The notes beneath the pieces are model-generated. The model saw nothing but the letters and a program-made list of their open reading frames with translations, did no database searches and was not told where the DNA came from. From the NCBI GenBank assembly GCA_036374795.1, contig DASUTC010000092.1:1-32475 (forward strand): a DNA stretch of 32,475 bases, in the 5' to 3' direction. The position numbers were made by a program, and so were the translations under genes. The DNA comes from Herpetosiphonaceae bacterium (GTDB lineage: Bacteria; Chloroflexota; Chloroflexia; Chloroflexales; Kallotenuaceae). Positions 8,002-27,199 of the stretch are shown one piece after another; position 1 is the first letter of the stretch, and each line of letters starts with the position of its first letter.

Positions 8002-8129
8002 GCGCTCAATCCTTCCTTTAGGCGTGGAAACCCGCCCGCTTCCAGCGGTGGATGGAATGCGGTTGCTTCAGCCGGATTCGTCCAGTAGGTGTGACCGTAG
8101 CTGTCACAGGGGTTCAGGAGAATGAACGT

Positions 8130-9227
8130 ATGAAGCTGATTGCCCACCTCAAACTGACTCCGACGCCGGAACAAGCCGCCCTGCTGCTGCAAACGCTGGA
8201 AGTAGCGAACGCCGCGTGCGACCACATGAGCGACACCGCCTGGCAGACGCAGACCTTCCGGCACTTCGACTTGCACAAGCTCTGCTACGAGTCGGTCCGC
8301 GCGTCGTTTGGGTTGTCGGCCCAACTCACCGTCCGCTGTCTCAGCAAGGTGGCCGATGCCTACAAGCTGGATCGCAAGACCAAGCGCACATTCAGGCCGC
8401 ACGGCAGTATTGCCTACGATGATCGTATCCTGTCGTGGAACCTGCATGAACCATCCGTGTCGATCTGGACGGTGCAGGGCAGACAGTCCATTCCGTTTGT
8501 GACGGGCACGCGCCAGATGGCGCTGCTGCGCACGCGCAAAGGTGAAACCGACCTGGCCTACGTCAAGGGCCAGTTTTACCTCCTGGCGACCTGCGAGGTC
8601 GCAGAACTCACGCCAGTGGGCGTGGATGGTACGTTGGGCGTGGATCTTGGCGTTACCAACATTGCCGTGGACAGCGACGGGATAATGTATAGCGGCACGC
8701 CGATGAAGGTGGCGCGCTACCGGCATCGCCGCTTGCGCACTAAGCTGCAACAGAAAGGCACCTTGGGCGCGCGTCGCCGTCTGCGCAAACTGGCGGGACA
8801 AGAACGCCGCTTTGCGACCCATACGAACCATGTGATCGCCAAACGCCTCGTATCGGCGGCTCAACGCACAAAGCGTCAGATCGCCCTGGAACAGTTGAAG
8901 GGCATTCAGACGCGGGTGAGGGCTAGGAAGTCGCAGCGTCCGATGCTGAAGTCGTGGGCGTTCCACCAATTGCAGCAGTTCGTGCGATATAAAGCGCGGT
9001 TGTGTGGTGTACCGGTCCACTTCGTTGATCCTCGGAATACTTCTCGCACTTGTCCGGCCTGTGGACATTGTGCGAAAGAGAATCGCAAGAGCCAAGCCCA
9101 ATTCCTGTGTACATCGTGTTCCTACGCTGGGAACGCGGATGTGATCGCGGCGATCAACATTGGTCGCCGGGCTGCGGTAAGCCAGCCAGACTACTCGGAT
9201 ACACCAACGGGTGTAGCGCCAGAGTAA
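8130..9227 (+). CDS. tnpB: TnpB RNA-guided nuclease (IS605 OrfB family)
   Basis: 365-aa TnpB. The family consists of RNA-guided DNA endonucleases, ancestral to Cas12, that help IS200/IS605 elements persist. The RuvC triad appears complete: D172 (GVDLGVTN), E254 (IALEQLKG) and D337 (GNADVIAAINI). The zinc ribbon is complete with C308-x2-C311 (CPACG) and C327-x2-C330 (CTSC). The N-terminal LTPTPEQAALL segment matches the family start. ATG 8130 is preferred because AGGAG lies 9 nt upstream; an in-frame extension to 8052 would enter the left end. The length is normal, there is no frameshift, and it is probably active. The guide (omega/reRNA) is expected to overlap the 3' end of this gene and the right end. 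Confidence 0.9.
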   Translation: MKLIAHLKLTPTPEQAALLLQTLEVANAACDHMSDTAWQTQTFRHFDLHKLCYESVRASFGLSAQLTVRCLSKVADAYKLDRKTKRTFRPHGSIAYDDRILSWNLHEPSVSIWTVQGRQSIPFVTGTRQMALLRTRKGETDLAYVKGQFYLLATCEVAELTPVGVDGTLGVDLGVTNIAVDSDGIMYSGTPMKVARYRHRRLRTKLQQKGTLGARRRLRKLAGQERRFATHTNHVIAKRLVSAAQRTKRQIALEQLKGIQTRVRARKSQRPMLKSWAFHQLQQFVRYKARLCGVPVHFVDPRNTSRTCPACGHCAKENRKSQAQFLCTSCSYAGNADVIAAINIGRRAAVSQPDYSDTPTGVAPE

Positions 9228-14115: not shown

Positions 14116-14176
14116 TTACAGGTTGAGCTGTGGCTGAGACGCCGGTTGCTGCCGAGGTTCTGCATACCGGGTCTAT

Positions 14177-14185
14177 AGGGTAGCA
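14177..14185 (-). promoter_or_regulatory. Extended -10 (TGC-TACCCT) of the pyr genes
   Basis: Minus-strand TGC TACCCT places the transcription start near 14170 and gives a ~114-nt leader that contains the attenuator. No clear -35 was found. Confidence 0.45.
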
Positions 14186-14261
14186 CGCAGGGCCACTTTT
14201 GGCAAATCGAGCTGTGTCACATGAAGACGCGCGCCATCCACGACATACTCAGATCTGGCCC

Positions 14262-14290
14262 TTGACAAAGCGGCCTTTTTAACCTACTAT
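14262..14290 (+). promoter_or_regulatory. Near-consensus promoter of the RiPP-like cluster
   Basis: TTGACA (14262-14267), an exactly 17-bp spacer and TACTAT (14285-14290). This is the strongest sigma-70-type promoter in the window. It faces the diiron-enzyme gene and predicts a start near 14297. Confidence 0.8.
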
Positions 14291-14296
14291 AAACGG

Positions 14297-14614
14297 AGCA
14301 TACCAGCTATACATATTTTGGTTATTATCCCCCCTGATAACCATCAATGTATGTGCCCTAATCAATATATAACAGCCCATTAAGCACACGAGCACCCATC
14401 AGTTTAGGTTTGTTCGGGTCCATAAACGCCCATAACCCAAATCATTAACCTAACAACGTTACCTGGCATATTGCTCTCAGCACTATTCCAGGCCCGCATA
14501 CGCGAGCAGACACCCATTCAGCGTGTCGCCGATCGACCACACTCAACGTCAAATCCATAGCAGCTTGTGTTAGCCGACTTACTGAGCGTGTAGTAGAAGG
14601 GTAGAGGGTGGCAG
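14297..14614 (+). promoter_or_regulatory. Long AT-rich 5' leader of the cluster
   Basis: About 318 nt lie between the predicted start and ATG 14615. The composition is clearly more AT-rich than the surroundings and no open reading frame is supported. A hairpin with an 8-bp stem (GGTTATTA / TGATAACC, one G-U) and a C-rich 7-nt loop lies at 14319-14342 (approximate). Several ATAACC/TTAACC-like words follow. No B12 box was found, although the cluster encodes a B12-type radical SAM enzyme. The leader could be a regulatory RNA or a protein-binding region. Confidence 0.45.
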
Positions 14615-15391
14615 ATGACTCGTAAGCGTCTTATTGCGCCAACTAGCCAGGACCTTAAACGCAGCGCGTTTCGGATCTACGAGAAGGCACGGCGCGTCGC
14701 TCACTGGAATCCCAAAACAGACATCGACTTTGAGCGACCGACGACCATCTCCGCCGAGCGGCAGGAGCTAGCCTGGCATCTGGCTAGCCAGAGCGTCTAT
14801 GCCGAGCAAGTTGGCATGATGCAGGCCGCCCGGCTGCTGAACGAGGTGGACGATATAGCGATCCGCTACTGCCTCGCCACCGCCGTATCGGATGAGGCCA
14901 AACATAGCGAGGTCTTTACCCGCTACGCGATGATCCGAGGCGGCGTGGTCGCTCCTGATAGTGAATTTGTCAATAATCTCTTCGAGGGCCTCGAAACGAT
15001 TGAGGACCCCTTTGGGCGCTTCATCGCCCACTCCATGCTAGAAGGTCTGGCCGCAGACGAGTTCTGGATCTTGCGGGCAGCCTTCAAAGGTGATGTGCTT
15101 GAGGAAATCTACCGCCGCGTCAGCGAAGACGAGGCGCGGCACGTCGCTATCGGCATGGATTATATGTCAACCGTCCTGCGTGATCGGGCGTTCGAGGATC
15201 ATGTCCATGCGCTAGAGCAGTATAGCCACATAGCGCTTGATATTGCCGGGATGACGAACGATCAAATCTTTGTCTGGCTGGGCGGGCTGGTTGACAAACA
15301 CCCTGATGAGGTCGCTCGCTGGATGCTGCGCAGGCATCGTCAGCGTATTGACCATTTATTAAAAGGTATCAACAAGGAGGCATCGACATGA
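14615..15391 (+). CDS. Ferritin-like diiron enzyme (AurF/oxygenase-like)
   Basis: 258-aa protein with the carboxylate-bridged diiron ligand pattern: E64 (VYAEQVG), E94-x-x-H97 (DEAKH), E143 (MLEGLAADEF) and E173-x-x-H176 (DEARH). Two EXXH motifs plus two further glutamates on a helical bundle are characteristic of ferritin-like oxygenases, oxidases and R2-type proteins. I place it loosely near AurF/CmlI-type enzymes, not confidently in a named family. The substrate is unknown. Its stop codon overlaps the start of the 42-codon peptide gene (ATGA), and AAGGAGG lies in its last codons, so the two are translationally coupled. That makes oxidation of the peptide, or assembly together with the radical SAM enzyme, an attractive inference. 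ATG 14615 has a weak purine-rich site (GAGGGTGG). Confidence 0.65.
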   Translation: MTRKRLIAPTSQDLKRSAFRIYEKARRVAHWNPKTDIDFERPTTISAERQELAWHLASQSVYAEQVGMMQAARLLNEVDDIAIRYCLATAVSDEAKHSEVFTRYAMIRGGVVAPDSEFVNNLFEGLETIEDPFGRFIAHSMLEGLAADEFWILRAAFKGDVLEEIYRRVSEDEARHVAIGMDYMSTVLRDRAFEDHVHALEQYSHIALDIAGMTNDQIFVWLGGLVDKHPDEVARWMLRRHRQRIDHLLKGINKEAST

Positions 15392-15516
15392 AGAAGGTCA
15401 CTCTTCGTGGGTCGGCGACCGGCGTGTGCAGGTATGTTACATACATGCACGCTCGCGACAAGAAGCAGGACGCGAATGTAGCGAGTGAGAAGAAGACGGC
15501 TTCCAAGGCAAACTAA
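15388..15516 (+). CDS. 42-aa peptide, candidate RiPP precursor
   Basis: Short gene overlapping the diiron-enzyme stop (ATGA) with a perfect AAGGAGG (15374-15380) 7 nt before ATG 15388. The product has 42 residues. The N-terminal half (MKKVTLRGSATGVCRYVTYM) has one Cys (14) and two Tyr (16, 19). The C-terminal half (residues ~21-42) is highly charged and rich in Lys, Asp, Ala and Ser. It is directly followed by an intrinsic terminator and then a RiPP-type radical SAM gene, the usual position for a precursor peptide. If it is one, the aromatic/Cys-containing N-terminal part could be the core with a charged follower, but this is inference. I recognise no known precursor family. It could instead be a small accessory subunit. 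Confidence 0.65.
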   Translation: MKKVTLRGSATGVCRYVTYMHARDKKQDANVASEKKTASKAN

Positions 15517-15532
15517 CGACGGCGGACATGGT

Positions 15533-15568
15533 GAAGACTGGGGCGTGATACCTCAGTCTTCCATTTTT
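15533..15568 (+). terminator. Intrinsic terminator after the candidate precursor gene
   Basis: GAAGACTGGGG (15533-15543), a 7-nt loop and CCTCAGTCTTC (15551-15561) form an 11-bp stem with one G-U, followed by CATTTTTC. Placed between the peptide gene and the radical SAM gene, it would let most transcripts stop after the peptide while some read through, as in many RiPP clusters. Confidence 0.75.
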
Positions 15569-15583
15569 CATACGAGGATCGAC

Positions 15584-17458
15584 ATGCGGATACTGCTGGT
15601 CAACATGCCCTGGCATGCGCTTGACTACCCATCGATCGCCCTGGGTATTCTGCACGCTCGGATAGCCGCGTGCGAGGAACGGCATGAGATTTCAGAGCTG
15701 TACGCCAATCTGCGCTGGGCCGAGTATATTCTGGAGCATGGCGAGGCCGATCCGAACAGCTATATCGACGTAGCCGATCATGGGTTCTTCTACGGCGTGG
15801 GCGAATGGGTCTTCTCGTCGGCGCTCTACCGCCAGCCGGGGCATAACCTGGAAGAGTACTGCGCCTATCTGGAGCAGCACGGCTTCGATTCCCGCGCCGC
15901 CGCTCGGCTGCATGGGCTAGCGCCAGCATTCATCGAGGAGTTGGCACAGGAAATTGTCGCTCAGGGCTATGACCTGATTGGCTTTACCACGACGTTCCTG
16001 CAAAATGTACCGTCGCTGTCGCTGGCTCAGCGGCTCAGAGAGCTCCAGCCGGATCTGCGGATCGCCTTTGGCGGCGGGAACTGCGACGGCATTCAGGGCG
16101 TGACGCTGCATCGCAATTTTCCATTCATTGATTTCGTCGTGCGGGGCGAGGGCGAGCAGGCATTTGTCCAACTGCTGGACGCGCTCGGCGGACACGGCGA
16201 TCTCGCGGCGATCGAGGGGCTGTGCTGGCGCGACAGCAGCGGCGCGCCCGTGGTCAACCGCGACCGTACGATCGCCTACCCGATCGGCTCCGTGCCCATG
16301 CCGATCTACGATACCTACTTCGAGATGATGGACCAGTCGCCGGTGGCCGGGTATGTCGAGCCCAAGCTGGTCGTCGAGTCGTCGCGTGGATGCTGGTGGG
16401 GCGAGAAACACCAATGCACCTTCTGCGGACTGAACGGCTCGATGATCAAATTCCGCAGCAAGCGTCCGGATGCGGTCTTCGCCGAGATCGATACCCTGGT
16501 GCGAAAGTATCACGCGCTGGACATCGTGATGGTCGATAACATCATGGATATGGGCTACTTCAAAGCGCTGATCCCGCAGCTGATCGAGGCCGACTGGGAC
16601 AGCAGAATTCATTACGAGGTCAAGTCGAACCTGAGCAGCGCGCAGGTCAAGGCGTTGCGCGACGCGCATGTCGTGCATGTCCAGCCGGGCATCGAAAGCC
16701 TGAGCAGCCGGGTCTTGCGCCTGATGAAGAAGGGCGTCTCCGGCGTGCAAAACGTGCGGATGCTGCGCGACGGCGAGGAGAATAACCTAACCGTCTCGTG
16801 GAACTACCTGTACGGCTTTCCCGGCGAAACAGACGACGACTATCTGAACATCATTGAGCAGATACCGGCGCTGGTCCACTTGCAGCCGCCGAGCGGCGCA
16901 ACCCGCATCGCGCTGGAGCGCTTCAGCCCGAACTTCGACGATCCCAGCTTTGGCTTCACGCGGCGCAGGCCAGCCGATTGTTATAGCCTGATCTACGATC
17001 TGCCGGTCAGCGAGCTGGAAGATATGGTCTATCTCTTTGAGACTGATGAGGCTGGCATCCGCGACGCTACCGCGCGGCGGCTTCAGGACGCCGTGATCGA
17101 GTGGTCGGCGCTCTACTACGAAAGCTCGCTCACCTACCGCCAGGTCAACGGCGTGCTGCATATCAGCGACCGCCGGGCGAATCGTGCGCCAGCAGACATC
17201 ATCATCGAGCAGCCGCGAGACGTAGCGGCCTATCTGCTGCTGCGGCGTGGAATGACCCAGGCGGCGCTGGAGCGAGCGCTGATCGAGGAGGCGTTGCCGA
17301 TCGACGGCCTGGATCGATGGATCGGCGACATGAAACGCCAAGGCCTGATCTTCGAGGAGGCGGGAACCTACCTGTCGCTGGCAACCCTGGCAAATCCCGC
17401 GCGTGTCCGTATTCAGCCTGCTCCGGCGACAGAGGCTGCTGTCGCCGATATGAACTGA
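15584..17458 (+). CDS. B12-type radical SAM RiPP maturation C-methyltransferase-like protein
   Basis: 624 aa from ATG 15584 (GAGGA 5-6 nt upstream). Residues ~1-190 look like a cobalamin-binding Rossmann domain, and the GFTTTFLQNVPS and AFGGGNCDG segments are visible. The radical SAM site is C270-x7-C278-x2-C281 within RGCWWGEKHQCTFCGLNG. That wording matches the TIGR03975 group (rSAM_ocin_1, now called RiPP maturation radical SAM C-methyltransferases) as I recall it. The family installs methyl groups on unactivated carbons of ribosomal peptides or similar substrates using SAM and methylcobalamin. A ~120-aa C-terminal region from ~500 has a winged-helix-like look (ERALIEEALPIDGLDRWI). It follows the 42-aa peptide and precedes a DUF5825-like gene by 10 nt. 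Peptide methylation is inferred from family and context. Confidence 0.82.
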   Translation: MRILLVNMPWHALDYPSIALGILHARIAACEERHEISELYANLRWAEYILEHGEADPNSYIDVADHGFFYGVGEWVFSSALYRQPGHNLEEYCAYLEQHGFDSRAAARLHGLAPAFIEELAQEIVAQGYDLIGFTTTFLQNVPSLSLAQRLRELQPDLRIAFGGGNCDGIQGVTLHRNFPFIDFVVRGEGEQAFVQLLDALGGHGDLAAIEGLCWRDSSGAPVVNRDRTIAYPIGSVPMPIYDTYFEMMDQSPVAGYVEPKLVVESSRGCWWGEKHQCTFCGLNGSMIKFRSKRPDAVFAEIDTLVRKYHALDIVMVDNIMDMGYFKALIPQLIEADWDSRIHYEVKSNLSSAQVKALRDAHVVHVQPGIESLSSRVLRLMKKGVSGVQNVRMLRDGEENNLTVSWNYLYGFPGETDDDYLNIIEQIPALVHLQPPSGATRIALERFSPNFDDPSFGFTRRRPADCYSLIYDLPVSELEDMVYLFETDEAGIRDATARRLQDAVIEWSALYYESSLTYRQVNGVLHISDRRANRAPADIIIEQPRDVAAYLLLRRGMTQAALERALIEEALPIDGLDRWIGDMKRQGLIFEEAGTYLSLATLANPARVRIQPAPATEAAVADMN

Positions 17459-17468
17459 AGATAAGCCT

Positions 17469-18197
17469 ATGATGACGAATACAGGTTATCCGATCGATCT
17501 GCTGGAACGTCCTCCGGCTCAGCCCGGCCTGCGCATGACGGCGCGTATCACCCGCGAAGAGGAACTCGACCAACTGCTGCCGTGGCTGGCGGATCAGGCG
17601 GGCGGTGCCGAGTATACCGTGGTCTGGGCAGTTGACGACCCTGAGGTATGGCCCGACGAGCAGAGCGTCGGCGTGCTGGCGCGGGCAACCGTGCCCACGA
17701 TCGTGGTCGAGCGGCCTGTCGTGCTGTCGGCGGAAGCGCCCAGGGCGACGCTCGCGTTCATCCGTTTCCTGCGCGATTCGCTCTCGTTTGGCCTGCGCGT
17801 GCAGTGGCAGGGCAGCGCCGACGAGACGATCGATCTTGAGCGGCTGGTTCACCTGCCCGCGCCCACGGAAGATCCGGTCGATGAGCCCTTCGAGATCTGG
17901 CGGCAGCTCTACTCGTTCGGGCGCATGTATTGGCGACGCGGGCCGGGCTTTGTGATCATCCGAGATACGCGCCCAACCGTCATCCAGGCGCGCTTCGTGC
18001 TGGACGAGGCCGCGCTCTGCGAGACGTTTCAGCGGATGCAGGTGCCGGTGCGCATCTCCGATCTAGCCCAGGATGATGCGCTTGCCGAAGCGGCTCAAAC
18101 GCTGCTCGACGAGGGCATCGCGCTGCGCCTGGACGATTGGTGCGTTGCGCTGCCGTTCAGAATGCGGACCTGGCCGATCCCGTACACCTCGGTCTGA
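17469..18197 (+). CDS. DUF5825-like protein, probable rSAM partner
   Basis: 242-aa soluble protein starting 10 nt after the radical SAM stop, so the two are co-transcribed. It has no signal peptide, membrane segment or metal motif. The central part has FIRFLRDSLSFGLRVQWQG followed by an acidic stretch, then a conserved-looking YWRRGPGFVIIRDTRP near residue 160 and a C-terminal part that could be winged-helix-like. This resembles, from memory, DUF5825 proteins that accompany radical SAM RiPP enzymes in actinobacteria. Function is unknown; peptide recognition or a chaperone-like role is inference. Two in-frame ATGs begin it (17469, 17472) and the ribosome-binding site is weak, suggesting coupling to the upstream gene. 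Confidence 0.55.
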   Translation: MMTNTGYPIDLLERPPAQPGLRMTARITREEELDQLLPWLADQAGGAEYTVVWAVDDPEVWPDEQSVGVLARATVPTIVVERPVVLSAEAPRATLAFIRFLRDSLSFGLRVQWQGSADETIDLERLVHLPAPTEDPVDEPFEIWRQLYSFGRMYWRRGPGFVIIRDTRPTVIQARFVLDEAALCETFQRMQVPVRISDLAQDDALAEAAQTLLDEGIALRLDDWCVALPFRMRTWPIPYTSV

Positions 18198-18250
18198 CAG
18201 AGCCTATGCGATCATGGGCTCCTCGCACAGGTGGCTGCGCGAGCGGGCTT

Positions 18251-18341
18251 GCCAAGCACAGCCAAAAACTCGAAGTACGAGGCTTATAGCAGTTGCCGCA
18301 TAGCTCCTAACGCTGATAGGAGTTATGCGGTTGTGCTTGGC
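18251..18341 (+). other. Three-way-junction-like palindromic element
   Basis: A 91-bp structure in the gap after the DUF5825-like gene. The outer stem is 18251-18263 with 18329-18341 (GCCAAGCACAGCC / GGTTGTGCTTGGC, 13 bp, one G-U). Inside are a small hairpin CTCG-AAGTA-CGAG (18269-18281) and a long hairpin 18296-18309 with 18317-18330 (14 bp, one G-U, 7-nt loop). The wobble-compatible differences hint at RNA. Alternatives are a miniature transposon-like palindrome or a strong terminator without a T tract. It lies between the two halves of the cluster. Confidence 0.55.
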
Positions 18342-18350
18342 GGACGAACT

Positions 18351-18400
18351 AAGAACCGGGTGCCAGACCCAACGTGTGGCCCCAGGGCATGGGCGCCCGG
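18351..18400 (+). repeat. GGGTGCC hairpin repeat, copy A
   Basis: CCGGGTGCC (18356-18364) pairs with GGCGCCCGG (18392-18400). The 16 bases at 18385-18400 match, in reverse complement with one difference, bases 22968-22983 of a second copy. Both copies are embedded in heptad-repeat spacers and preceded by AAGAAC-type units. Confidence 0.55.
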
Positions 18401-18420
18401 CGCACAAGGGGAAACCCAGG

Positions 18421-18490
18421 TTCAAAGTTCAAGGAACTCAAAACTTGAAGCTTGAAACTTGAAACTCGCATTGAAGCTGTAAGCTGAAAC
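18421..18490. repeat. Heptad-repeat tract upstream of the second peptide gene
   Basis: Ten units in exact 7-bp phase: TTCAAAG, TTCAAGG, AACTCAA, AACTTGA, AGCTTGA, AACTTGA, AACTCGC and others. This is the same family as the pyrB downstream tract, in a different register. Confidence 0.7.
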
Positions 18491-18565
18491 ACATACATCG
18501 CGCCCAGTTCTATGCTACGCTCCGCTCACCTTCGCGCTGCGAAGCTCGATCGTGATAAGGAGAAA

Positions 18566-18682
18566 GTGGCAGAGGACGTTCAGGCACCTGTCATTGTCGC
18601 CCCCCACTACAAGCAACTGTTCGTGGAAGGAAACCTGCATTGCGAGCTTTGCCTCCTGCTTTCAAACATTCGCGCTTGGTGA
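18566..18682 (+). CDS. 38-aa peptide, second candidate precursor or leader ORF
   Basis: GTG 18566 follows AAGGAG (18557-18562) with tight spacing. An in-frame ATG at 18512 would give 56 aa but has no ribosome-binding site. The product begins AEDVQAPVIVAPHYKQLFVE and ends with a CELC pair (Cys26, Cys29), a Leu-rich stretch and a C-terminal Trp. Its TGA lies 2 nt before ATG 18685 of the MFS gene (TGA-GG-ATG), implying coupled translation. The location next to an exporter suits a precursor peptide or a translational leader for the transporter. No family is recognised. The alternative is that the MFS gene starts at TTG 18640 and this frame is coincidental. Confidence 0.4.
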   Translation: MAEDVQAPVIVAPHYKQLFVEGNLHCELCLLLSNIRAW

Positions 18683-18684
18683 GG

Positions 18685-19947
18685 ATGGGCGCAGATAAGC
18701 TTCAGAAGATTCGTGATCCCTTCGGCCTCGGCCAGCAGTATCAGCTTACCTGGATGGCCGAGACGATCAACGTTCTGGGTAGCCAGGTGACATTGCTGGC
18801 AATCCCGACGCTGGCTGTCATCGTCTATAACGCCTCCGCGATCCAGGTGACAACGCTGCTGGCGGTATCGTACCTGCCGTCGATGCTGATCGGCCCGCTG
18901 CTGGGGCTGCTCGTCGATAGCATCTCGCTGCGGCGGCTGCTGATCATCTCGGACCTGGCGGCGGCGCTGACGGTCGCAACCGTTCCCTTGCTGATGGCCT
19001 TCGGCCTCGACTCGCTGCTCTATCTCTACGTCGTGGGCGCGCTGATCGGCCTCTTCCAGGCGCTGCACGAGCTTTCGGTGCAATCGCTGATCCCGGCGCT
19101 GGTGCCGGAGCAAGACCTGATGCGCGGCAACGTCGACCTTGAGGGCGGTCGATCGGTTGGGCGCATGAGCGGCTGGAGTCTCGGCGGAACGCTGGTGCAG
19201 GTGGTGGGCGCGAGCTGGGCGATGCTGATCGACATGGCCTCGTTCCTGATCTCGGCGGCGCTACTCTGGCGGCTAAACGACTCCTCGCTGCGCCAGACAG
19301 CACCGCCGAAGCTCGGCTTTCAGTCCGTGCTCGACGGCCTGCGCATGTTCTCGCGCTCCTCGACGCTGATTCGCCTGACGATGGGCACCTTCACGCTGAA
19401 CTTGGGCGGCTCGGTCCTGGGCGCGCTCTATCTCTTCTACGTCTACCGCGAGCTACAGCTCTCGCCGTCCGCCGTGGGCGTCACCGTGACGCTGAATTAT
19501 CTGGGCGCGTTCCTGGGCGTGATCCTGGCCCGTCGGCTGGTCAAGCGCATGCCGCTCAGCCTGATGATTACCATCTCCTCGGCGGTTGCCGGGCTGGTGC
19601 TCTTTTTGATCCCGCTGGCCTCATACGGCAACAGCTTTATTGTTCTGCTGGTCTATAACCTGATCTTTGGTCTGGTCAGCGTTGTCTGGGCCGTGACCTC
19701 CGTGACGATGCGCCAGACGATCATCCCGCACCACCTGATGGGTCGCGTCAACGCCACGATGCGCGCGATCGGAGCAACCTCGTTCCCGATCGGCGCGATC
19801 GTGGGCGGTGTCGCCTCAAGCTTCTTTGGCGTACTGCCGACGCTGTACGCCGCCGCGATGCTCGCATCGACGGCCTGGATCTGGTTCTTTCCGCCGACGC
19901 GCTGGGTTGAATCGGCGCAGCGCGATCTGGCGGGAGAATCCACGTAG
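18685..19947 (+). CDS. MFS transporter, probable exporter of the cluster product
   Basis: About 420 aa with roughly twelve hydrophobic segments, of the MFS_3/enterobactin-exporter-like type. Visible features are an N-terminal WMAETINVLGSQVTLLAIP helix, a GPLLGLLVDSISLRRLLIISD loop equivalent to the MFS motif A, and MGRVNATMRAIGATSFPIGA in the second half. ATG 18685 is chosen for the stop-start coupling with the small ORF. TTG 18640, with GGAAGG 9 nt upstream, would add 15 residues and cannot be excluded. It is followed after 9 nt by the E1 alpha gene, so it belongs to the same transcription unit. Proton-driven efflux of the peptide or small-molecule product is inferred from context. Confidence 0.85.
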   Translation: MGADKLQKIRDPFGLGQQYQLTWMAETINVLGSQVTLLAIPTLAVIVYNASAIQVTTLLAVSYLPSMLIGPLLGLLVDSISLRRLLIISDLAAALTVATVPLLMAFGLDSLLYLYVVGALIGLFQALHELSVQSLIPALVPEQDLMRGNVDLEGGRSVGRMSGWSLGGTLVQVVGASWAMLIDMASFLISAALLWRLNDSSLRQTAPPKLGFQSVLDGLRMFSRSSTLIRLTMGTFTLNLGGSVLGALYLFYVYRELQLSPSAVGVTVTLNYLGAFLGVILARRLVKRMPLSLMITISSAVAGLVLFLIPLASYGNSFIVLLVYNLIFGLVSVVWAVTSVTMRQTIIPHHLMGRVNATMRAIGATSFPIGAIVGGVASSFFGVLPTLYAAAMLASTAWIWFFPPTRWVESAQRDLAGEST

Positions 19948-19956
19948 GGGGTATGC

Positions 19957-20985
19957 ATGCCAGGAACTGCATCGGAAGCGCCGGGCAACGACGACCAGGC
20001 GGCCATGCTGCACCTGTACCAGACGATGCTGCGGATACGGGTTTTCGAGGAGCGGCTGCTGACGCTGCGCTCCAGCGGCGAGATCACCGGAGTTGTCCAT
20101 CCCTACATCGGCCACGAGGCCATCGCCGCCGGAGTGTGCGCCGCGCTCCAGGCCGACGACCAGATCGCCAGCTACTATCGCGGACACGGCCACGCAATCG
20201 CCAAGGGCGTCGCTCTTCCCCGGATGATGGCAGAGATCTTCGGGCGAGAAACCGGCCTCTGTCAGGGCCGAGGCGGCTCGATGCATCTTGCCGATTGGCA
20301 GCGCGGCTTTCTCGGCGGCAACGCGGTGGTCGGCGCGAACGTGCCGATCGCCCTGGGCCTGGCGATGGCTGCGCAGGTTCGCCAGAGCGATCAGGTCGTG
20401 GTCGTCTTCTTCGGCGATGGCGCGACCGGCGCGGGCGTGGTTCATGAGTGCCTGAGCGTGGCCTCGGCGCAACACCTGCCGATCGTCTTTGTCTGCGAGA
20501 ACAATAGCTACCAGGACGTCACCCGCAGCGATCAGGTCTTCGCATCGACGGACTTGAGCCGCTGGGGCGGCGCGCACCTGATGCCCGGCGTGGCGGTCGA
20601 TGGTAACGATGTGCTTGCGGTGCGACAGGCGGCGCGCGATCTGGTAGCTCGCGCGCGCAGCGGCGAAGGACCGTCCTTTCTGGAGGCGAAAACCTACCTG
20701 CTGCGCTTCCACGCGCAGTGGGGCACCAGGCCGCTGCCGGAGTATCGCCCGGCAGATGAGGTCCAGCAGTGGGCTACGCGCGATCCGCTGCCTCGGCTCA
20801 GGGCTGTGCTGATCGAGCAGGGCTGCGCTGCCACGCAGCTTGAGGATCTGGCCCGGCTGGTGGATGCCGAGGTCGACGAGGCGGTCGCGTTTGCGCGCGA
20901 GTCGTCGCCGCCAGGCCCAGAAACGGCAATGCGCGGCGTTTTCACACCCACATCGGCGCAGCCAGCAGCAAGCGAGGTACCGTAA
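19957..20985 (+). CDS. ThDP-dependent 2-oxoacid/acetoin dehydrogenase E1 alpha-like subunit
   Basis: 342-aa alpha subunit of a heterotetrameric ThDP enzyme that decarboxylates 2-oxo acids or cleaves acetoin. The ThDP/Mg motif runs from GDGATGAGVVHE to CENNSY (residues ~150-185). HPYIGHEA and YRGHGHAIAKG near residues 50-75, and GRGGSMHLAD near 107, are closest to acetoin dehydrogenase AcoA. ATG 19957 has AGGGGG 5 nt upstream; ATG 19953 is out of frame. Its stop overlaps the beta-subunit start (TAATG). No E2 (lipoyl) or E3 gene is adjacent, so this E1 may transfer its ThDP-bound acyl unit to something other than the classical complex, or borrow a housekeeping E2. Confidence 0.88.
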   Translation: MPGTASEAPGNDDQAAMLHLYQTMLRIRVFEERLLTLRSSGEITGVVHPYIGHEAIAAGVCAALQADDQIASYYRGHGHAIAKGVALPRMMAEIFGRETGLCQGRGGSMHLADWQRGFLGGNAVVGANVPIALGLAMAAQVRQSDQVVVVFFGDGATGAGVVHECLSVASAQHLPIVFVCENNSYQDVTRSDQVFASTDLSRWGGAHLMPGVAVDGNDVLAVRQAARDLVARARSGEGPSFLEAKTYLLRFHAQWGTRPLPEYRPADEVQQWATRDPLPRLRAVLIEQGCAATQLEDLARLVDAEVDEAVAFARESSPPGPETAMRGVFTPTSAQPAASEVP

Positions 20986-21971
20986 TGACGATGGCTCCCC
21001 CGACCAAGGTCATCACCGAGCAGCTTCGGGCCAATCCGAGGCTGCTCTACTTCGGCACCTATGTGCCGCCATTCTGGACCGACGAGTTCGGCAGCGCCCG
21101 CATTCGCTTCTTTCCGATCGCCGAGCATACGATGGTCGGCGCCGCGGTTGGCGCGGCCATCGCTGGCCTGCATCCGATCGTCCATCTCAACCGCGCAGCC
21201 TTCGCCTTTGTGGCGATGGACCAGATCGTCAACCAGGCGGCGAAGCTGCGCTACATGTCGGGCGAGCAGTTCTCGATCGGAATAACGCTGCGGGCGATGA
21301 CCAGGGGCGGCGATAACCTTGGCGCGCAGCACGAACAGTCGCCGTACGGCATGTTCGCGCATGTGCCGGGCATCAAGGTCGTCGTGCCGTCGACGATCGA
21401 GGAGGCTGCCGGGCTGTACCTGACGGCGTTTGACGATCCGAATCCGGTCTTTGTCTTCGAGGCTCCGCAGCTCTATGAGTGGTGGGACCGCAGCGACGGC
21501 GTGATCGAGCCGATCCCCTTCGGCGCGGCGCGCGTCTGGCGTCGGGGGGCGGATGTGACGATCGTCGCGATCGGCGTGATGGTGCGCGAGGTGCTGACGG
21601 CTGCTGATCGGCTGGCGCAGCAGAACATCTCCTGCGCGGTGATCGACCCGCGCACGCTGGTGCCGCTCGACATGGAGACGATCGCCGCGTCGGTACGCAC
21701 CACGGGTCGGCTCGTCGTCGTCGATGAAGCGCCGCCGACGGCTTCGATGGCGGCTGAGATCATCGCGGCGATCTGCGATCGGCCTGAGCTCTACGGAGCG
21801 CTCGCGGCCATGCCGGTGCGTGTGTGCGGGGCCGCCCTGCCGATGCCCTTCAGCCCGGCGTTGCAAGCGGACGCCATCCCGAACGCCGATCGGATTGTGC
21901 AGGTGGTGGAGCGGCTGGTGTCTGGCTCGTCTTCGCAGCCGGTGGCAGAAAACGACGCCTCGTGCGGATGA
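20985..21971 (+). CDS. ThDP-dependent 2-oxoacid/acetoin dehydrogenase E1 beta-like subunit
   Basis: 328-aa beta subunit, with an N-terminal transketolase-like pyrimidine-binding domain and a C-terminal transketolase domain. Visible motifs are AEHTMVGAAVGAAIAGLHPI near residue 45, GAQHEQSPYGMFAHVPGIKV near 115-135 and IDPRTLVPLD in the C-terminal domain. ATG 20985 overlaps the alpha-subunit stop by one base, and MTMAPP offers a second Met; coupling ensures equal amounts of both subunits. Together with alpha it forms the complete E1 active site. The paired SDR 78 bp downstream suggests reduction of an acyloin or keto product. The exact substrate is not readable from sequence. Confidence 0.88.
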   Translation: MTMAPPTKVITEQLRANPRLLYFGTYVPPFWTDEFGSARIRFFPIAEHTMVGAAVGAAIAGLHPIVHLNRAAFAFVAMDQIVNQAAKLRYMSGEQFSIGITLRAMTRGGDNLGAQHEQSPYGMFAHVPGIKVVVPSTIEEAAGLYLTAFDDPNPVFVFEAPQLYEWWDRSDGVIEPIPFGAARVWRRGADVTIVAIGVMVREVLTAADRLAQQNISCAVIDPRTLVPLDMETIAASVRTTGRLVVVDEAPPTASMAAEIIAAICDRPELYGALAAMPVRVCGAALPMPFSPALQADAIPNADRIVQVVERLVSGSSSQPVAENDASCG

Positions 21972-21991
21972 CGAAAGAACAAAGAACCAAG
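21971..21991. repeat. Short heptad-repeat tract
   Basis: Three 7-bp units (ACGAAAG, AACAAAG, AACCAAG) directly after the E1 beta stop. Confidence 0.4.
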
Positions 21992-22049
21992 CGCCTACAG
22001 GCCGTGGGCTTGGATGAACGTGGCGCTGAGGCGCGGCAAGGAGATGCTC

Positions 22050-22832
22050 ATGATTCAGGACGCTGGCCGGGGCAGGGTGGCGCTGATTACAGGCGGTTCC
22101 AGCGGTATCGGTCTGGCGAGCGCGGCGGCATTGCTGAATGACGGCTACGCGGTGATGCTCTGCGCGCGCGGCGAGGAACGGTTGCGCCAGGCATCGGAGA
22201 AGCTGGGGAATGCCGAGCGCTGCGCGTGGCACGTCGCCGATATGGCGCAGCCGGAGCAGGCGCAGGCGGCGGTCGAGGCGACACGGCAGCGCTTCGGGCG
22301 TCTGGATGCGCTGGTCGTCTCGCACGGCGTTCAGCCGGAGCCCAGAAGCTTCCTTGAGCTGACCGCCCAGGACTGGCAGCAGACGCTTGGCGTGAACCTG
22401 CACGGTGTGATCGCCGTGTGCCAGGCGGCTGCCCGCGTGATGGTCGAGCAGGGCGCGGGCGGTAGCATCGTCACCATCTCCTCGGTGAACGGCCTCTACC
22501 CTGAGGCGACGCTCGCGCCCTACAACGTATCCAAGGCGGCGGTGATCATGCTGACGAAATCGATCGCCTGTGAGCTGGCACCGCACGGTATTCGGGCACA
22601 TTGCCTCGCGCCCGGCTGGGTGGTAACGCCGATGACTGAGGCGCACTATGTGCCGATCGCCGGACGACCGCTGGATAATCCGCTGGTGGGCAAGATCGGC
22701 CAGCCCGACGAGATCGCAAGCTGGGTTGCCTTTCTGGTCGGCTCGGGCTCGTCCTATGCTACGGGCGAGGTGATCGTGGTCGATGGCGGCCAGACGACCG
22801 CGCTGAGTCCGGTTCGCCTGCGCCGCGTTTAG
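22050..22832 (+). CDS. Short-chain dehydrogenase/reductase (classical SDR)
   Basis: 260-aa NAD(P)-dependent oxidoreductase. The cofactor motif GGSSGIG is near residue 15. The catalytic Ser is in TISSVNG near 145, and the Tyr/Lys pair is in YNVSKAA near 160. The C-terminus has VDGGQTTA, usual for the family. I use ATG 22050 because AAGGAG (22038-22043) lies 6 nt upstream; in-frame ATGs at 22044 and 22014 fit worse. The protein resembles the 3-oxoacyl-ACP reductase / acetoin-diacetyl reductase group, which cannot be separated by eye. Being the last gene of the plus-strand run after an acetoin-type E1, it may reduce the product of that enzyme. It ends before a long heptad/hairpin region that is likely the transcription end. 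Confidence 0.87.
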   Translation: MIQDAGRGRVALITGGSSGIGLASAAALLNDGYAVMLCARGEERLRQASEKLGNAERCAWHVADMAQPEQAQAAVEATRQRFGRLDALVVSHGVQPEPRSFLELTAQDWQQTLGVNLHGVIAVCQAAARVMVEQGAGGSIVTISSVNGLYPEATLAPYNVSKAAVIMLTKSIACELAPHGIRAHCLAPGWVVTPMTEAHYVPIAGRPLDNPLVGKIGQPDEIASWVAFLVGSGSSYATGEVIVVDGGQTTALSPVRLRRV

Positions 22833-22848
22833 TATTCTGCGTTCAGAG

Positions 22849-23009
22849 TTTCAAGTTCAAAGCTTCAAGTCCAGGGATCAGGGGTCGGGGGAGTAGCGAA
22901 CACGGGAACACAAGAACACGGAAGGTACGGCTTTGTTCTTTCGTTCTTTTGTTCCCGTGTTCTTTTGCCGGGTGCCCATGCCCAAAGGGCACCCGGTTCT
23001 TTGTTCTGC
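22849..23009. repeat. Long heptad tract with 20-bp inverted repeat and GGGTGCC hairpin copy B
   Basis: At least 20 units keep 7-bp phase, from TTTCAAG to GTTCTTT. Within it 22898-22917 and 22943-22962 are 20-bp inverted copies with one mismatch. Next, CCGGGTGCCC (22968-22977) pairs perfectly with GGGCACCCGG (22987-22996); this is hairpin copy B. The region probably ends transcription of the cluster and insulates the sigma-factor gene. Confidence 0.65.
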
Positions 23010-23039
23010 TCCTTGCGGCACGGGGCAGCGAGTGGCCTA

Positions 23040-23080: not shown

Positions 23081-23686
23081 GTGGATAAGACGGTTGACGA
23101 TCGAACACTCTATGTTGCTTGTCAGCAGGATGGTACCGATGCTCAAGCTGATGCCTTCGAGCAATTGTGGGCCTACCTGTACCGCATCGCCTACGCGATG
23201 CTCCGCACACAGCGAGATCCCGCCTCCCTGGCCTCAGACTGTACACAGAAAGCGCTGATCAAAATCCATCGTAGCCTGGAGCAGTGCCGTAATCCGGTGG
23301 TCTTTCGCGAGTGGACCGCCCAGATCGTGCGCCGCGTCGTCCTCGACGAGCTGCGACGGCCTGAGTACCGGCGCTACCCGGCGATCTCGATCGACGATGA
23401 GCACGCGCCGTGGCTGGCGACCTCGCAGCAGCTTGCCGACACGACCGATGTGCGGGCGCTGCTGCACGACGTTATTTTCCACGGCCCGCTGAGCGAGCGG
23501 TCGCGGCGGGTGGTGATCGGGCGCTACTTCGCGGAGCAGACCGACGAGGTGCTGGCCCGTGCCGAAACCGAGCGCGCCGGACAAGAGATTCGGCCCAGCC
23601 ATATCCAGGTGACACGCGCGAAAAACCTCGCCGCGCTGCGCCGCGATCCGGCGCTTCTGGATCGGCTGCGCGAACTGCTGGACTAA
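23081..23686 (+). CDS. ECF-like RNA polymerase sigma factor
   Basis: 201-aa protein with a sigma-70 region 2-like N-terminal half: AFEQLWAYLYRIAYAML, then the A..CTQKALIKIHRSLEQCR segment and FREWTAQIVRRVVLDELRR, which corresponds to the -10 recognition helix. The C-terminal part (~130-201) is a diverged region 4 ending RPSHIQVTRAKNLAALR, a helix-turn-helix ending often seen in chloroflexal ECF-like factors. Start GTG 23081 has GAGGGG 8 nt upstream. It is followed after 154 bp by a zinc-finger protein that is likely its regulator, and then by a convergent CHAT gene. Target promoters are unknown; the CHAT or secreted protease genes nearby are candidates. Confidence 0.75.
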   Translation: MDKTVDDRTLYVACQQDGTDAQADAFEQLWAYLYRIAYAMLRTQRDPASLASDCTQKALIKIHRSLEQCRNPVVFREWTAQIVRRVVLDELRRPEYRRYPAISIDDEHAPWLATSQQLADTTDVRALLHDVIFHGPLSERSRRVVIGRYFAEQTDEVLARAETERAGQEIRPSHIQVTRAKNLAALRRDPALLDRLRELLD

Positions 23687-23840: not shown

Positions 23841-24575
23841 GTGAGCTTCGATCACTGGACATTGCAGCAAGCGCAGCGGCTAGCTCAGATCATCACACTC
23901 CACCATGACCAGGCTGCCCACAGCGCGTGCCTCGACGTGCTGGAGCCGTATATTACCGCCCAGCTTGCCGGGCAGGACTATATAGCGCTATTTCCGATCG
24001 TGACCCAGCATCTCGATAGCTGTGTCGCGTGTGCCGAGGCGTACGCCCTGGTGTACGAGGCGCGTCTCGCCGAGGCGACGGATCTGCTACCGATCGCCGT
24101 TCCCGCGCCCGCTCTGGATTTCTTGCGGCTGAGCACAGCGGATCGGCTACAGCGGACGCTCACGGCTGCGATCGAGCGGCTGGCAGAGCGCCGTTTGCGC
24201 TTCACGCTCTCCCAGTCGCTCCTCGATCTGCTCGCGCCGCAGCGCTCCGAGTTTGCGCTGCGTGGCGCTGCCCACGAGCCGATGCTTGATGTAACCGTCG
24301 ATCAGCCCTTCGGCGATGACACGCGGCTTCAGGTGAGCGTCTATCGGCAGCGCGATGCCCAGGATCAGTGTACGGTGCGCTCCCAGGTAGTGCTTGCCGA
24401 TCGCGAGTGGCCCGATCTGGCCGATCTTCCCGTGACGCTGACCGTCGGCGGCACCCAGCGCCGCGCTCACACCGATCCCTGGGGCGAAGCTGTCTTCGAG
24501 AATGTGCCGATCGACGATGTGCCGGGGCTTCAGATCGAGGTCGATGTCGATAGCCCGCCGCAGACCAGCACGTAA
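23841..24575 (+). CDS. Zinc-finger (ZAS/zf-HC2-like) anti-sigma-type protein with C-terminal beta domain
   Basis: 244 aa from GTG 23841 (AAGGAGG 5 nt upstream; the longer in-frame version lacks a ribosome-binding site). H57-x3-C61-x2-C64 (QHLDSCVACAEAY) is the ZAS-type zinc motif found in anti-sigma factors. The helical N-terminal part before it resembles zf-HC2 proteins. No membrane helix is seen, so it would be a soluble regulator. Residues ~150-240 form a beta-rich domain that ends like a carboxypeptidase-regulatory-like or Cna-B-like fold (TDPWGEAVFENVPIDDVPG). Its last 46 bp overlap, tail to tail, the end of the CHAT gene. Binding of the adjacent sigma factor and sensing through the CHAT protein are inferences from gene order. 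Confidence 0.65.
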   Translation: MSFDHWTLQQAQRLAQIITLHHDQAAHSACLDVLEPYITAQLAGQDYIALFPIVTQHLDSCVACAEAYALVYEARLAEATDLLPIAVPAPALDFLRLSTADRLQRTLTAAIERLAERRLRFTLSQSLLDLLAPQRSEFALRGAAHEPMLDVTVDQPFGDDTRLQVSVYRQRDAQDQCTVRSQVVLADREWPDLADLPVTLTVGGTQRRAHTDPWGEAVFENVPIDDVPGLQIEVDVDSPPQTST

Positions 24576-27199
24576 GGTGCCCAAAAGATCGGGTTGGCGA
24601 AGGGTCGCGCTGCTGGATCGTCGCTTAAGCTCTGCGGCACGGCCTCGCCGTTCCGCGCCAGCCACTCGGCGACCTCGCGCGCGCGCAGGTGGCGCAGGTA
24701 GCGCTGCGCCGCACGCAGCGCCGTGGGCGGATCGCTGCATGGCTGCTGTGCCAGGAGGATGGCATAAAACCGCTCCATCAGCAGCCGCGCCGAGGTATCT
24801 TCGACCATCCACAGCGTGACCAGCACGGCTCGCGCGCCGGATCGCAGGAACGTCCGCACCAGGCCCATCGGCTCATCGCCGCGCAGCACCCGGCTCAGGC
24901 CGCTCCGGCACGCGCTGAGCGTCACCAGTTCAGCCTGAAGCTGGTAGTCCGCGAGCACATCGGCGGCGCTGAGCTTCTCGCCGGGGCCGATCTCCAGCCA
25001 GGAGCGCAGGGGATTGTCGTGATCGAACTCCCCGTGACAGGCGAAGTGGAGCCATCGGTAGCGCCCGACGACGGCGGACAACTGCCGCCGAATGTCGCGA
25101 TGCCCGTGCCAGACGGTTCCGCCACACAGCGCCGCGACCGTCTCCGCCTCCGGCTCGACATGCCGCAGGTTGCGGTCGGTGCCGCCGTCATAGCCCACGG
25201 TCAGACATAGCTCGGAAGCGCCAGCAGATCGCGAGCGTCCGGCGCGGAAGAGAACCGTCGCGCTCGGCGCGTAGATCAGGTCCAGGCCATGCTCAAGCAG
25301 CGGCTCGTCGTTGTCGTCGAGCAGCGCGGTGAAGGGAAGCTGATGCAGCGGGCCGTGGGGAATGATCGCCACCTGCCGCGCCGGAGCCAGCAGATCGCCA
25401 GCGGGCGCGATCAGCGCCCGGTAAATCCGGCGCAGGAGATTGCTCGCCAGGAAGCGCTGGCCGTCGGCAAGATACGGCGAGGCGGCCTGGAAGACGTTTG
25501 GATTGACCGCGCAATCATGGCCGCGTATGTCGTCGGCGGTGAGCGCTAGGAGCAGCAGCCGCGAGGGCGTTTCCAGACAGGCGCGCACCCGTGGATCGCA
25601 CGCGCGGAGCAATGCCGTTTCTGGATTGTACAGGCCGGTGCTCACATACGCCAGCACAAGCATCTGCGGAGGCAGCAGCGCCTGCACCTCACGCGCGGTG
25701 ATCGGCGCGACATCGGCGGCATGCAGGCTGGACGTATGCCGCGCCAGCATATCGGCAAAGGCCCGTGCCCGCGCGCGCTCCGCGTAGTCGAACGCCAGCG
25801 CCGCATCGCCCTGCTCCAGGCACAGCAGGATTGCCGCCTCGTAGACCTGCTGCCAGCGTCCCATGATGCTGATTTGCAGCGATTCGTCGGAGGTCGTCGC
25901 GCGCGCCGCCTCGATCGCCTCGACCGCCAGCGCGTAGTGATGCAGCGCCGCCGCCGCATGGTGGAGCCGCTGCTCGGCATGGCCGATCCGGTACTGGACC
26001 TGCGCGACAATCTCACGCCGTCCAAGCTCCTGCACTATCTCTAGCGCCGCACGATAGTGAACCAGCGCCGCAGCGTCGTCGTCCTGCGCCTGGCACACCA
26101 GACCAAGGCCAAGATGCGCGTCCACGGCGAAGGTGCGCGTGCGCATCTGGTGCAGCGCGCGCTCGAAGTCCGCGCAGGCACGGTCGAACTGGCCCTGAAG
26201 CAGCCGGACCTCGGCGATATTGTTGGTGACTTGCGCGAAGAAGTCGAGCGGCCCGTCGCGCTCGAAGATCGCGGCGGCATGGCCGAAGGCCGCCAGAGAT
26301 TGCTCCCACCGCCCAAGATCCCGCGCCACAAGCCCCAGGTTGGTCCAGGCCATCGCCTGCCAGTGAACGTTCTCGACCCGCCGAAAAAGCTCAAGGCTGG
26401 TGGTAAGCTGGCGCTCGGCGACTGGATAATCCTGGAGGTAGTAGCTCAGGATGCCCAGGTTCATCAGCGCCAGACCCTCGCGCGCAGGATTGCCGAGGCG
26501 CTGCCATAGCTCGTAGCTGGTCTGAAACGTATCTCTGGCGCGCTGATAATCGCCTTGCAGCCGCGCGAACGTGCCCTCAGAGTTGAGCACCCGCGCGCGC
26601 AGCGCGTCGTCCAGCTCGGCCTCCGTCAGCAGGCGCGTCAGCTCGGAGCGCGATGCTGCGTACTGCTCGATCAGACCGAAGCTGAGGCCACGGTAGTACC
26701 ACAGCAGGTACCGATGCCTGGGCGTTCGCAGATCGTGCAGCGGCAGCTCGGCAAGCGCGGTCGCCAGCGCGGTCGGCTCCTGCTGGATCAGCAGCTCACA
26801 GAAGCGCTCGACAAGGCGCATGGTAGTAGCTTCGAGCGCGGCGTGCTCCGGCGGAGCGGCCATCGTCAGGCGGTGCGCATAGTGCCGCGCGGCCTCGCCA
26901 ACCAGTGCGCGCAGCAGCTCCGGCGCTTCTTGCAGCGCGCTGTAGATCGCCTCCTGCACCGACGGATTGATCCGGTAGCCCGGCGCTGCTGTGCAGATGA
27001 TGCCAGCGGCCACGAGATCCGGCACGATCGTCGCGACCGGCTCGTCCACGAGCGCGGCCAGCGTGTCCAGATCGAATGTTTCGAGGATCGCCGCTGCTTC
27101 CAGCACATGGTACTGGCTCGGAGATACACGGGTGAGCCCGTCGCAGAATTGATCCGTCGTCTCTTCGGTATGCTCACTATTACGGATGATCGCCACCAT
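24530..27199 (-). CDS. TPR-CHAT protein (caspase-like protease)
   Basis: 889-aa cytoplasmic protein. Residues ~20-130 look like a winged-helix/STAND-type remnant (LEAAAILETFDLDTLAALVD, then PGYRINPSVQEAIYSAL) without a P-loop. Residues ~160-470 are tetratricopeptide-like helical repeats (for example ALMNLGILSYYLQDYPVAERQL). Residues ~560-885 are a CHAT domain with the caspase-type dyad: His722 (LHFACHGEFDHDNP) and Cys764 (LSACRSGL). CHAT proteins are clan CD peptidases; some, such as Craspase's Csx29, cleave anti-sigma-type partners when triggered. The neighbouring sigma and zinc-finger genes make a proteolytic switch plausible here, but this is inference. ATG 27199 has GGGGAC upstream. The 3' end overlaps the convergent zinc-finger gene by 46 bp. 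Confidence 0.88.
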   Translation of the reverse strand: MVAIIRNSEHTEETTDQFCDGLTRVSPSQYHVLEAAAILETFDLDTLAALVDEPVATIVPDLVAAGIICTAAPGYRINPSVQEAIYSALQEAPELLRALVGEAARHYAHRLTMAAPPEHAALEATTMRLVERFCELLIQQEPTALATALAELPLHDLRTPRHRYLLWYYRGLSFGLIEQYAASRSELTRLLTEAELDDALRARVLNSEGTFARLQGDYQRARDTFQTSYELWQRLGNPAREGLALMNLGILSYYLQDYPVAERQLTTSLELFRRVENVHWQAMAWTNLGLVARDLGRWEQSLAAFGHAAAIFERDGPLDFFAQVTNNIAEVRLLQGQFDRACADFERALHQMRTRTFAVDAHLGLGLVCQAQDDDAAALVHYRAALEIVQELGRREIVAQVQYRIGHAEQRLHHAAAALHHYALAVEAIEAARATTSDESLQISIMGRWQQVYEAAILLCLEQGDAALAFDYAERARARAFADMLARHTSSLHAADVAPITAREVQALLPPQMLVLAYVSTGLYNPETALLRACDPRVRACLETPSRLLLLALTADDIRGHDCAVNPNVFQAASPYLADGQRFLASNLLRRIYRALIAPAGDLLAPARQVAIIPHGPLHQLPFTALLDDNDEPLLEHGLDLIYAPSATVLFRAGRSRSAGASELCLTVGYDGGTDRNLRHVEPEAETVAALCGGTVWHGHRDIRRQLSAVVGRYRWLHFACHGEFDHDNPLRSWLEIGPGEKLSAADVLADYQLQAELVTLSACRSGLSRVLRGDEPMGLVRTFLRSGARAVLVTLWMVEDTSARLLMERFYAILLAQQPCSDPPTALRAAQRYLRHLRAREVAEWLARNGEAVPQSLSDDPAARPFANPIFWAPYVLVCGGLSTSTSI

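Follow-up and report, generated by a model that had tools for sequence, protein, structure and literature searches.

A candidate RiPP gene cluster joining an R2-like diiron oxidase, a cobalamin radical SAM enzyme and a very short precursor in a Herpetosiphonaceae bacterium

Contig DASUTC010000092.1 (assembly GCA_036374795.1) of a Herpetosiphonaceae bacterium was analysed over 32,475 nucleotides, hereafter the window. Between 14615 and 22832 its plus strand carries eight genes in series, encoding a diiron protein, a small peptide, a radical S-adenosylmethionine (rSAM) enzyme, a DUF5825 protein, a major facilitator superfamily (MFS) protein, E1 alpha and E1 beta subunits and a short-chain dehydrogenase (SDR). 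With a probability of about three in four, we read the locus as a cluster for a ribosomally synthesized and post-translationally modified peptide (RiPP), a subtype of the DUF5825/C-methyltransferase kind that has an additional R2-like diiron oxidase and a very short Cys-X-Tyr precursor. In our best reading, the subtype with these two features is new. An earlier note on this DNA had placed all eight genes correctly in one plus-strand series and had taken the whole for a RiPP-type cluster; co-conservation bears out the core of that view and not the membership of the E1 and SDR genes.

The conserved core and its peptide

When 84,980 species genomes were scanned with the rSAM protein, by exact octapeptides and therefore with limited recall, three strong loci were returned. 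Two are in Bacillota, in Alicyclobacillus shizuokensis (L078) and A. ferrooxydans (L079), and in both the genes run in the order diiron protein, tiny peptide, rSAM enzyme of family TIGR03975, DUF5825, SDR and MFS. Identity to the window proteins is 42-44% for the diiron orthologues, 50-51% for the rSAM enzymes and 31-35% for DUF5825. The earlier note had expected co-conservation of the diiron, peptide and rSAM genes if they form one system, and rSAM genes never adjoining the other two in relatives if they do not; the shared order in both Alicyclobacillus genomes bears out the former and not the latter. Because the four genes are co-conserved in so distant a group, sequence comparison supports the idea that diiron protein, peptide, rSAM enzyme and DUF5825 act together as a RiPP-type cluster. 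Further diiron orthologues were not found in the genomes sampled from the bacterium's own class and phylum, the Alicyclobacillus order, Bacillota and the phylum of Nonomuraea. Judged from the scan and these samples, the cluster is rare and patchy, and the gene set has apparently spread horizontally.

The candidate precursor gene (15388-15516, plus strand) encodes 42 amino acids (MKKVTLRGSATGVCRYVTYMHARDKKQDANVASEKKTASKAN), and orthologous open reading frames (ORFs) sit in the same place between the diiron and rSAM genes of L078 (21 codons, MKKVQIPRKVKQGTCHYMIGS) and L079 (22 codons, VKKVKIPKRVKPGTCHYMITQS). The three peptides (42, 21 and 22 amino acids) share a leader start, KKV, and a G-[TV]-C-[HR]-Y core, which reads GVCRYVTY in the window and GTCHYM(I) in Alicyclobacillus; the window peptide also has a basic C-terminal tail. 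Among 23,689 small ORFs of the loci compared, only these three fit the pattern ^MKK[VIL].{5,10}G.C.Y. The stop codon of the diiron gene and the start codon of the peptide overlap in the window (ATGA) and in L079 (GTGA); in L078 the peptide begins a few bases farther 3'. A strong Shine-Dalgarno sequence accompanies each gene: AAGGAGG in the window (15374-15380, plus strand), within the 3' terminal part of the diiron gene, AAAGGAGGTG in L078 and AAAGGGGGTG in L079. The two Alicyclobacillus ORFs differ at 2, 3 and 10 sites in codon positions 1, 2 and 3, with four synonymous and no non-synonymous changes in the GTCHYMI stretch. Because of the shared motif, the strong Shine-Dalgarno sequence by each diiron stop and the third-position divergence of the Alicyclobacillus pair, we take the small peptide gene to be real and coding. 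The locus thus has what one would look for in a RiPP cluster, an encoded precursor, conserved as a coding ORF in three genomes, beside putative modifying enzymes. One small ORF in L096 scored like the precursor; it lies out of frame in the region of a diiron gene there and was taken as a chance match.

The gap between the precursor and rSAM genes contains a terminator-like hairpin of 11 pairs followed by T5 (15533-15561, plus strand). L078 and L079 have hairpins in the corresponding place, which are stronger than those of shuffled sequences (z -4.6 and -3.2), and the element may be an attenuator that favours expression of the precursor.

The diiron protein, the rSAM enzyme and DUF5825

The diiron gene (14615-15391, plus strand) encodes a protein of 258 amino acids that profile, fold and orthologue evidence places among the R2-like, ferritin-superfamily diiron oxidases. 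It scores under every Pfam threshold and reaches 46.5 bits with the NCBIfam equivalog for R2-like ligand-binding oxidases (R2lox), well below the cut-off of 194. A profile search of the PDB matches it to R2lox (E 2.6e-8) with the metal ligands aligned, and Foldseek matches its low-confidence structure model to the folds of R2lox, ribonucleotide reductase R2 and ADO. Six R2-type ligands (E64, E94, H97, E143, E173 and H176) are invariant across the three orthologues. The two EXXH motifs by which the earlier note had recognised a diiron protein, E94xxH97 and E173xxH176, are part of this full set of four carboxylates and two histidines, in the order E, ExxH, E, ExxH that marks the R2, ADO and AurF class. 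The window protein has the ligand set and fold class of R2-like ligand-binding oxidases, ADO and AurF, but it falls far under their family thresholds, is shorter and is linked to a RiPP precursor.

A diiron relative in genome G288 has no recognised peptide or rSAM neighbour. On plasmids of Xenorhabdus and Pantoea (L086, 8776-12698; L087, 8779-13629), relatives with 27-32% identity belong to a compact set with an MFS gene, a hypothetical protein and a sterol desaturase, with no rSAM gene annotated, which looks like another small-molecule pathway.

The rSAM gene (15584-17458, plus strand) encodes a cobalamin-dependent enzyme of family TIGR03975 (rSAM_ocin_1), at 581 bits against a curated cut-off of 281.85. 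It has a B12-binding domain (PF02310, 37.6 bits, cut-off 32.1) and the cluster cysteines C270-X7-C278-X2-C281, so that the CX7CX2C, TIGR03975-like enzyme proposed before was correctly identified. The same is true of its DUF5825-like neighbour (17469-18197, plus strand; 242 amino acids), which matches PF19142 at 79.8 bits (cut-off 25). A profile-profile comparison (hhalign, E 2.8e-6) and a sub-threshold Pfam hit show this partner to be similar to the rSAM enzyme's own C-terminal domain (window 16991-17455), which suggests that a recognition or partner domain has been duplicated or split off. The strand-helix order of the DUF5825 model is also suggestive of a RiPP recognition element (RRE) fold; as Foldseek gave no RRE match and Pfam no PqqD hit, we do not claim one.

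In a maximum-likelihood tree of 23 TIGR03975 proteins, the window enzyme groups with the two Alicyclobacillus enzymes (support 95/93), and this trio sits in a 100/100 clade with enzymes of Streptomyces and Nonomuraea, several of which have DUF5825 adjoining. Streptomyces members of the clade have short precursors just upstream of the rSAM gene (MQKDVIHNDPLAGDEENRKPSVGITITVPFRNAEDADED in S. clavuligerus), and the S. clavuligerus locus (L084) encodes an MFS protein and a member of the prolyl oligopeptidase family as well. Outside the clade fall a second TIGR03975 enzyme from the window's own genome, on contig C278, and the other enzymes from its phylum. These same-phylum clusters share the enzyme family with the window cluster but have no diiron gene, several carry precursor-like ORFs of about 60-76 amino acids downstream of the rSAM gene with hydrophobic ends such as VKVGIVIEF, and the genome's own second cluster has no adjoining DUF5825. 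That second cluster (L064, 2102-5027) has three precursor-like ORFs of 61-73 amino acids downstream, two of them ending in VKVGIVIEF and VKVSLVVEF. A further TIGR03975 gene was seen on a Streptomyces globosus plasmid (L191, 5722-13617), together with a pheganomycin-family precursor, an amidinotransferase and dpgABC genes.

Extent of the cluster

Congeners and family members match the window along the left flank of the locus as far as 14171-14220, and genome G828 also matches the right flank, starting at 23023. Between the flanks (14.22-23.02 kb) the relatives have no long match, and the diiron gene is absent from congeners; the interval of the earlier note is thus either a single accessory block or a series of insertions side by side. 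The empty-site junction is unreadable in G828 because its two flanks lie on different contigs. Inside the block, the break suspected at 18.2-18.5 kb proved real: it is an intergenic repeat dispersed through the genome (18200-18520, no strand assigned; TTGAAACTTGAAACT-like), with at least 40 matches in the window's own genome, and may mark a unit boundary. Related repeat sequence recurs at about 22.85 kb, where a second dispersed intergenic repeat (AACACGGGAACA-like) occupies 22835-23010. Of the two small ORFs pointed out in the earlier note, conservation upholds the first, the precursor, but the second (18512-18682), considered as another precursor, has no relatives that we could find and starts next to repeat DNA, and is unsupported.

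Past the repeat lies an MFS_1 family protein (91 bits; 18685-19947, plus strand, with its ATG at 18685 and the frame open from 18640). MFS genes also accompany DUF5825 in related clusters, directly after it in L085 and after the SDR gene in L078 and L079, and the top PLSDB match of the window protein by coverage x identity lies in an rSAM-DUF5825 operon of Streptomyces NBC_01340, other hits having more bits. Because of this company, the exporter, whose family had been correctly named, probably belongs to the cluster.

The last three genes, all on the plus strand, are less securely attached. They encode a thiamine pyrophosphate-dependent, 2-oxoacid dehydrogenase-type E1 alpha (19957-20985; PF00676, E1_dh, 233 bits), an E1 beta (20985-21971; PF02780/PF02779, with Transketolase_C at 114 bits) whose best paralogues within this genome are 38-39% identical to it, and a FabG-like SDR (22014-22832; PF13561, adh_short_C2, 189 bits); for each, membership is unproven. 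E1 counterparts are absent from the Alicyclobacillus clusters and from the other related clusters examined, and the SDRs of the Alicyclobacillus clusters are only 24-25% alike to that of the window. These enzymes may add or reduce a 2-oxoacid-derived group, as the earlier note supposed; that proposal is unsupported beyond adjacency and a shared accessory block, and on present evidence the genes are only neighbours.

It is a serious possibility, somewhat short of an even chance, that the locus comprises two units, a four-gene RiPP operon at 14.6-18.2 kb and an unrelated metabolic or efflux operon of MFS, E1, E1 and SDR genes at 18.6-22.8 kb. The 0.4-kb gap filled with repeat, the lack of E1 genes and the dissimilar SDRs in Alicyclobacillus, and the frequency of E1 beta relatives elsewhere all fit such a division, whereas the recurrent pairing of MFS and DUF5825 genes, the plasmid match within an rSAM-DUF5825 operon and the position of both halves inside one block missing from relatives do not. 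The question concerns the limits of the cluster, and either answer is compatible with our reading of its core.

A candidate sigma-70 promoter, TTGACA-17-TACTAT (14262-14290, plus strand), lies about 325 nucleotides 5' of the diiron gene. The near-consensus promoter of the earlier note is therefore present (10 of 12 positions), but such sites are not enriched over shuffled sequence (3 found, 2.3 expected) and it is a weak candidate. Elsewhere in the window lies a gene (8052-9227) of the IS605 OrfB/TnpB-like kind, whose TNB domain is Cas12f1-like, and a TPR-CHAT protein, conserved in a congener, is encoded on the minus strand (24530-27199) near an extracytoplasmic function-type sigma factor gene (23081-23686).

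Proposed chemistry and known relatives

We propose that the very short precursor would be made in excess, because of its strong ribosome-binding site and the hairpin ahead of the enzyme genes. The cobalamin rSAM enzyme would then C-methylate unactivated carbons of the core, with DUF5825 as a substrate-recognition or partner subunit; candidate sites are the V/T that precedes Cys and the V/M/I that follows Tyr. This core would also be oxidised, in an O2-dependent reaction, by the R2-like diiron enzyme, whether through hydroxylation, through desaturation or through an oxidative cross-link close to Cys-X-Tyr. A protease encoded outside the cluster would trim the peptide, and the MFS protein would export it. 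For the methylated and oxidised ribosomal peptide of the earlier note there is now a conserved coding peptide gene beside both enzymes; the two reactions, like the role of the peptide as substrate, the action of the hairpin and export, are put forward here as inferences.

The nearest described relatives are the clavusporin-type clusters (Zhang et al., Nat Chem Biol 2025, as cited in PMC12257519 and PMC12951456). Clavusporin biosynthesis is stated to include the C-methylation of peptide residues by a homologous pair of rSAM enzyme and DUF5825 (PMC12257519), and we infer that L084 is the clavusporin cluster of S. clavuligerus. The window cluster has such a pair from the same 100/100 clade (its rSAM enzyme is 45% identical to that of S. 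clavuligerus), with DUF5825 adjoining; it also has an MFS gene and, directly 5' of the rSAM gene, a short precursor. It differs in adding the R2-like diiron enzyme and in precursors that, across the window and Alicyclobacillus, go down to 21 amino acids. In place of a V/I/T-rich hydrophobic core such as the Streptomyces VGITITVPF it has GVCRYVTY or GTCHYM(I), and no prolyl oligopeptidase accompanies it: Pfam finds no peptidase gene in 14.6-22.8 kb, and none was recognised in the L078 and L079 clusters.

Biphenomycin-like (pbs) clusters, and their YHxYxY variants with a second B12-rSAM enzyme and DUF5825 (PMC12257519), offer another comparison. They too bring an O2-using iron enzyme, a B12-rSAM enzyme and, in one variant, DUF5825 to a short aromatic motif, but their iron enzyme is a multinuclear non-heme iron-dependent oxidase (MNIO; DUF692) with a separate RRE partner, whereas that of the window cluster is a ferritin-fold R2-like protein, and none of the cluster genes has a DUF692 match in Pfam. 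The earlier note knew of no described cluster with this combination. The rSAM and DUF5825 pair has in fact been described, in clavusporin biosynthesis (PMC12257519); the claim holds for the diiron gene, since the literature searched, with incomplete coverage, yielded neither a described cluster that includes an R2-like diiron gene nor a ferritin-fold R2-like diiron oxidase linked to RiPPs.

Several observations weigh against our reading. Only three instances of the cluster are known, two of them from one genus. The match between the window and Alicyclobacillus peptides is short, with a local score of 28-31 against a shuffle mean of 16, and 12-34 of 5000 shuffles reach that score (gap cost 11). 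Taken alone, the window hairpin does not clearly exceed shuffled sequences in strength (z -1.45), and the diiron model has a pLDDT of 61, which is low confidence. The cluster is missing a leader peptidase gene, unlike that of S. clavuligerus. Finally, TIGR03975 enzymes are not all proven methyltransferases, and the B12-rSAM enzyme PbsB cross-links aromatic residues (PMC12257519).

This last point leads to a rival account of the chemistry, which we consider unlikely: the RiPP cluster is the same, but its cobalamin rSAM enzyme, like PbsB, would cross-link the core, for instance Tyr to a neighbouring residue or to Cys, and the diiron enzyme would be the activating hydroxylase, the role that an MNIO has in biphenomycin-like RiPPs. 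The core is rich in Tyr, Cys and His (CRYVTY, CHYM) and not in V/I/T like those of clade relatives, and PbsB links YTY peptides, with Phe hydroxylation preceding cross-linking in the native peptide (PMC12257519). However, the window enzyme belongs to a DUF5825-paired clade whose described relative C-methylates, and the Alicyclobacillus peptides do not share the window peptide's second Tyr. More boldly, and with doubt outweighing conviction, one might speculate that the R2-like diiron oxidase and the cobalamin rSAM enzyme together rebuild Cys-X-Tyr within a precursor of 21-42 residues, giving a new RiPP class with a cross-linked or methylated tripeptide scaffold.

Much less probable is that the small ORF is the regulatory leader peptide of an attenuator and that the enzymes use another substrate. 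A strong ribosome-binding site on a short ORF, with a terminator-like hairpin between that ORF and the enzyme genes, is what one might expect of such a leader. Yet it contains no single-codon run, GxCxY is kept across distant bacteria with synonymous drift, the short precursors of related clusters occupy this position too, ahead of the rSAM gene, and Rfam finds no leader, cobalamin riboswitch or other element at gathering scores. That the diiron gene is a chance neighbour is scarcely credible and already contradicted: most related diiron proteins in other genomes do not adjoin a TIGR03975 gene, but the same adjacency recurs in distant bacteria with 42-44% identical orthologues and closely spaced stop and start codons.

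Read as a RiPP cluster, this locus brings together a tiny ribosomal peptide, a cobalamin rSAM enzyme and a diiron oxidase from the R2/ADO/AurF class. The precursors, as short as 21 amino acids with a short conserved core, are within reach of chemical synthesis, and the enzymes should therefore be directly testable. Mining by DUF692/MNIO genes or by known precursor families would overlook such clusters, and if the diiron enzyme does act on the peptide, RiPP chemistry would gain a metalloenzyme class.

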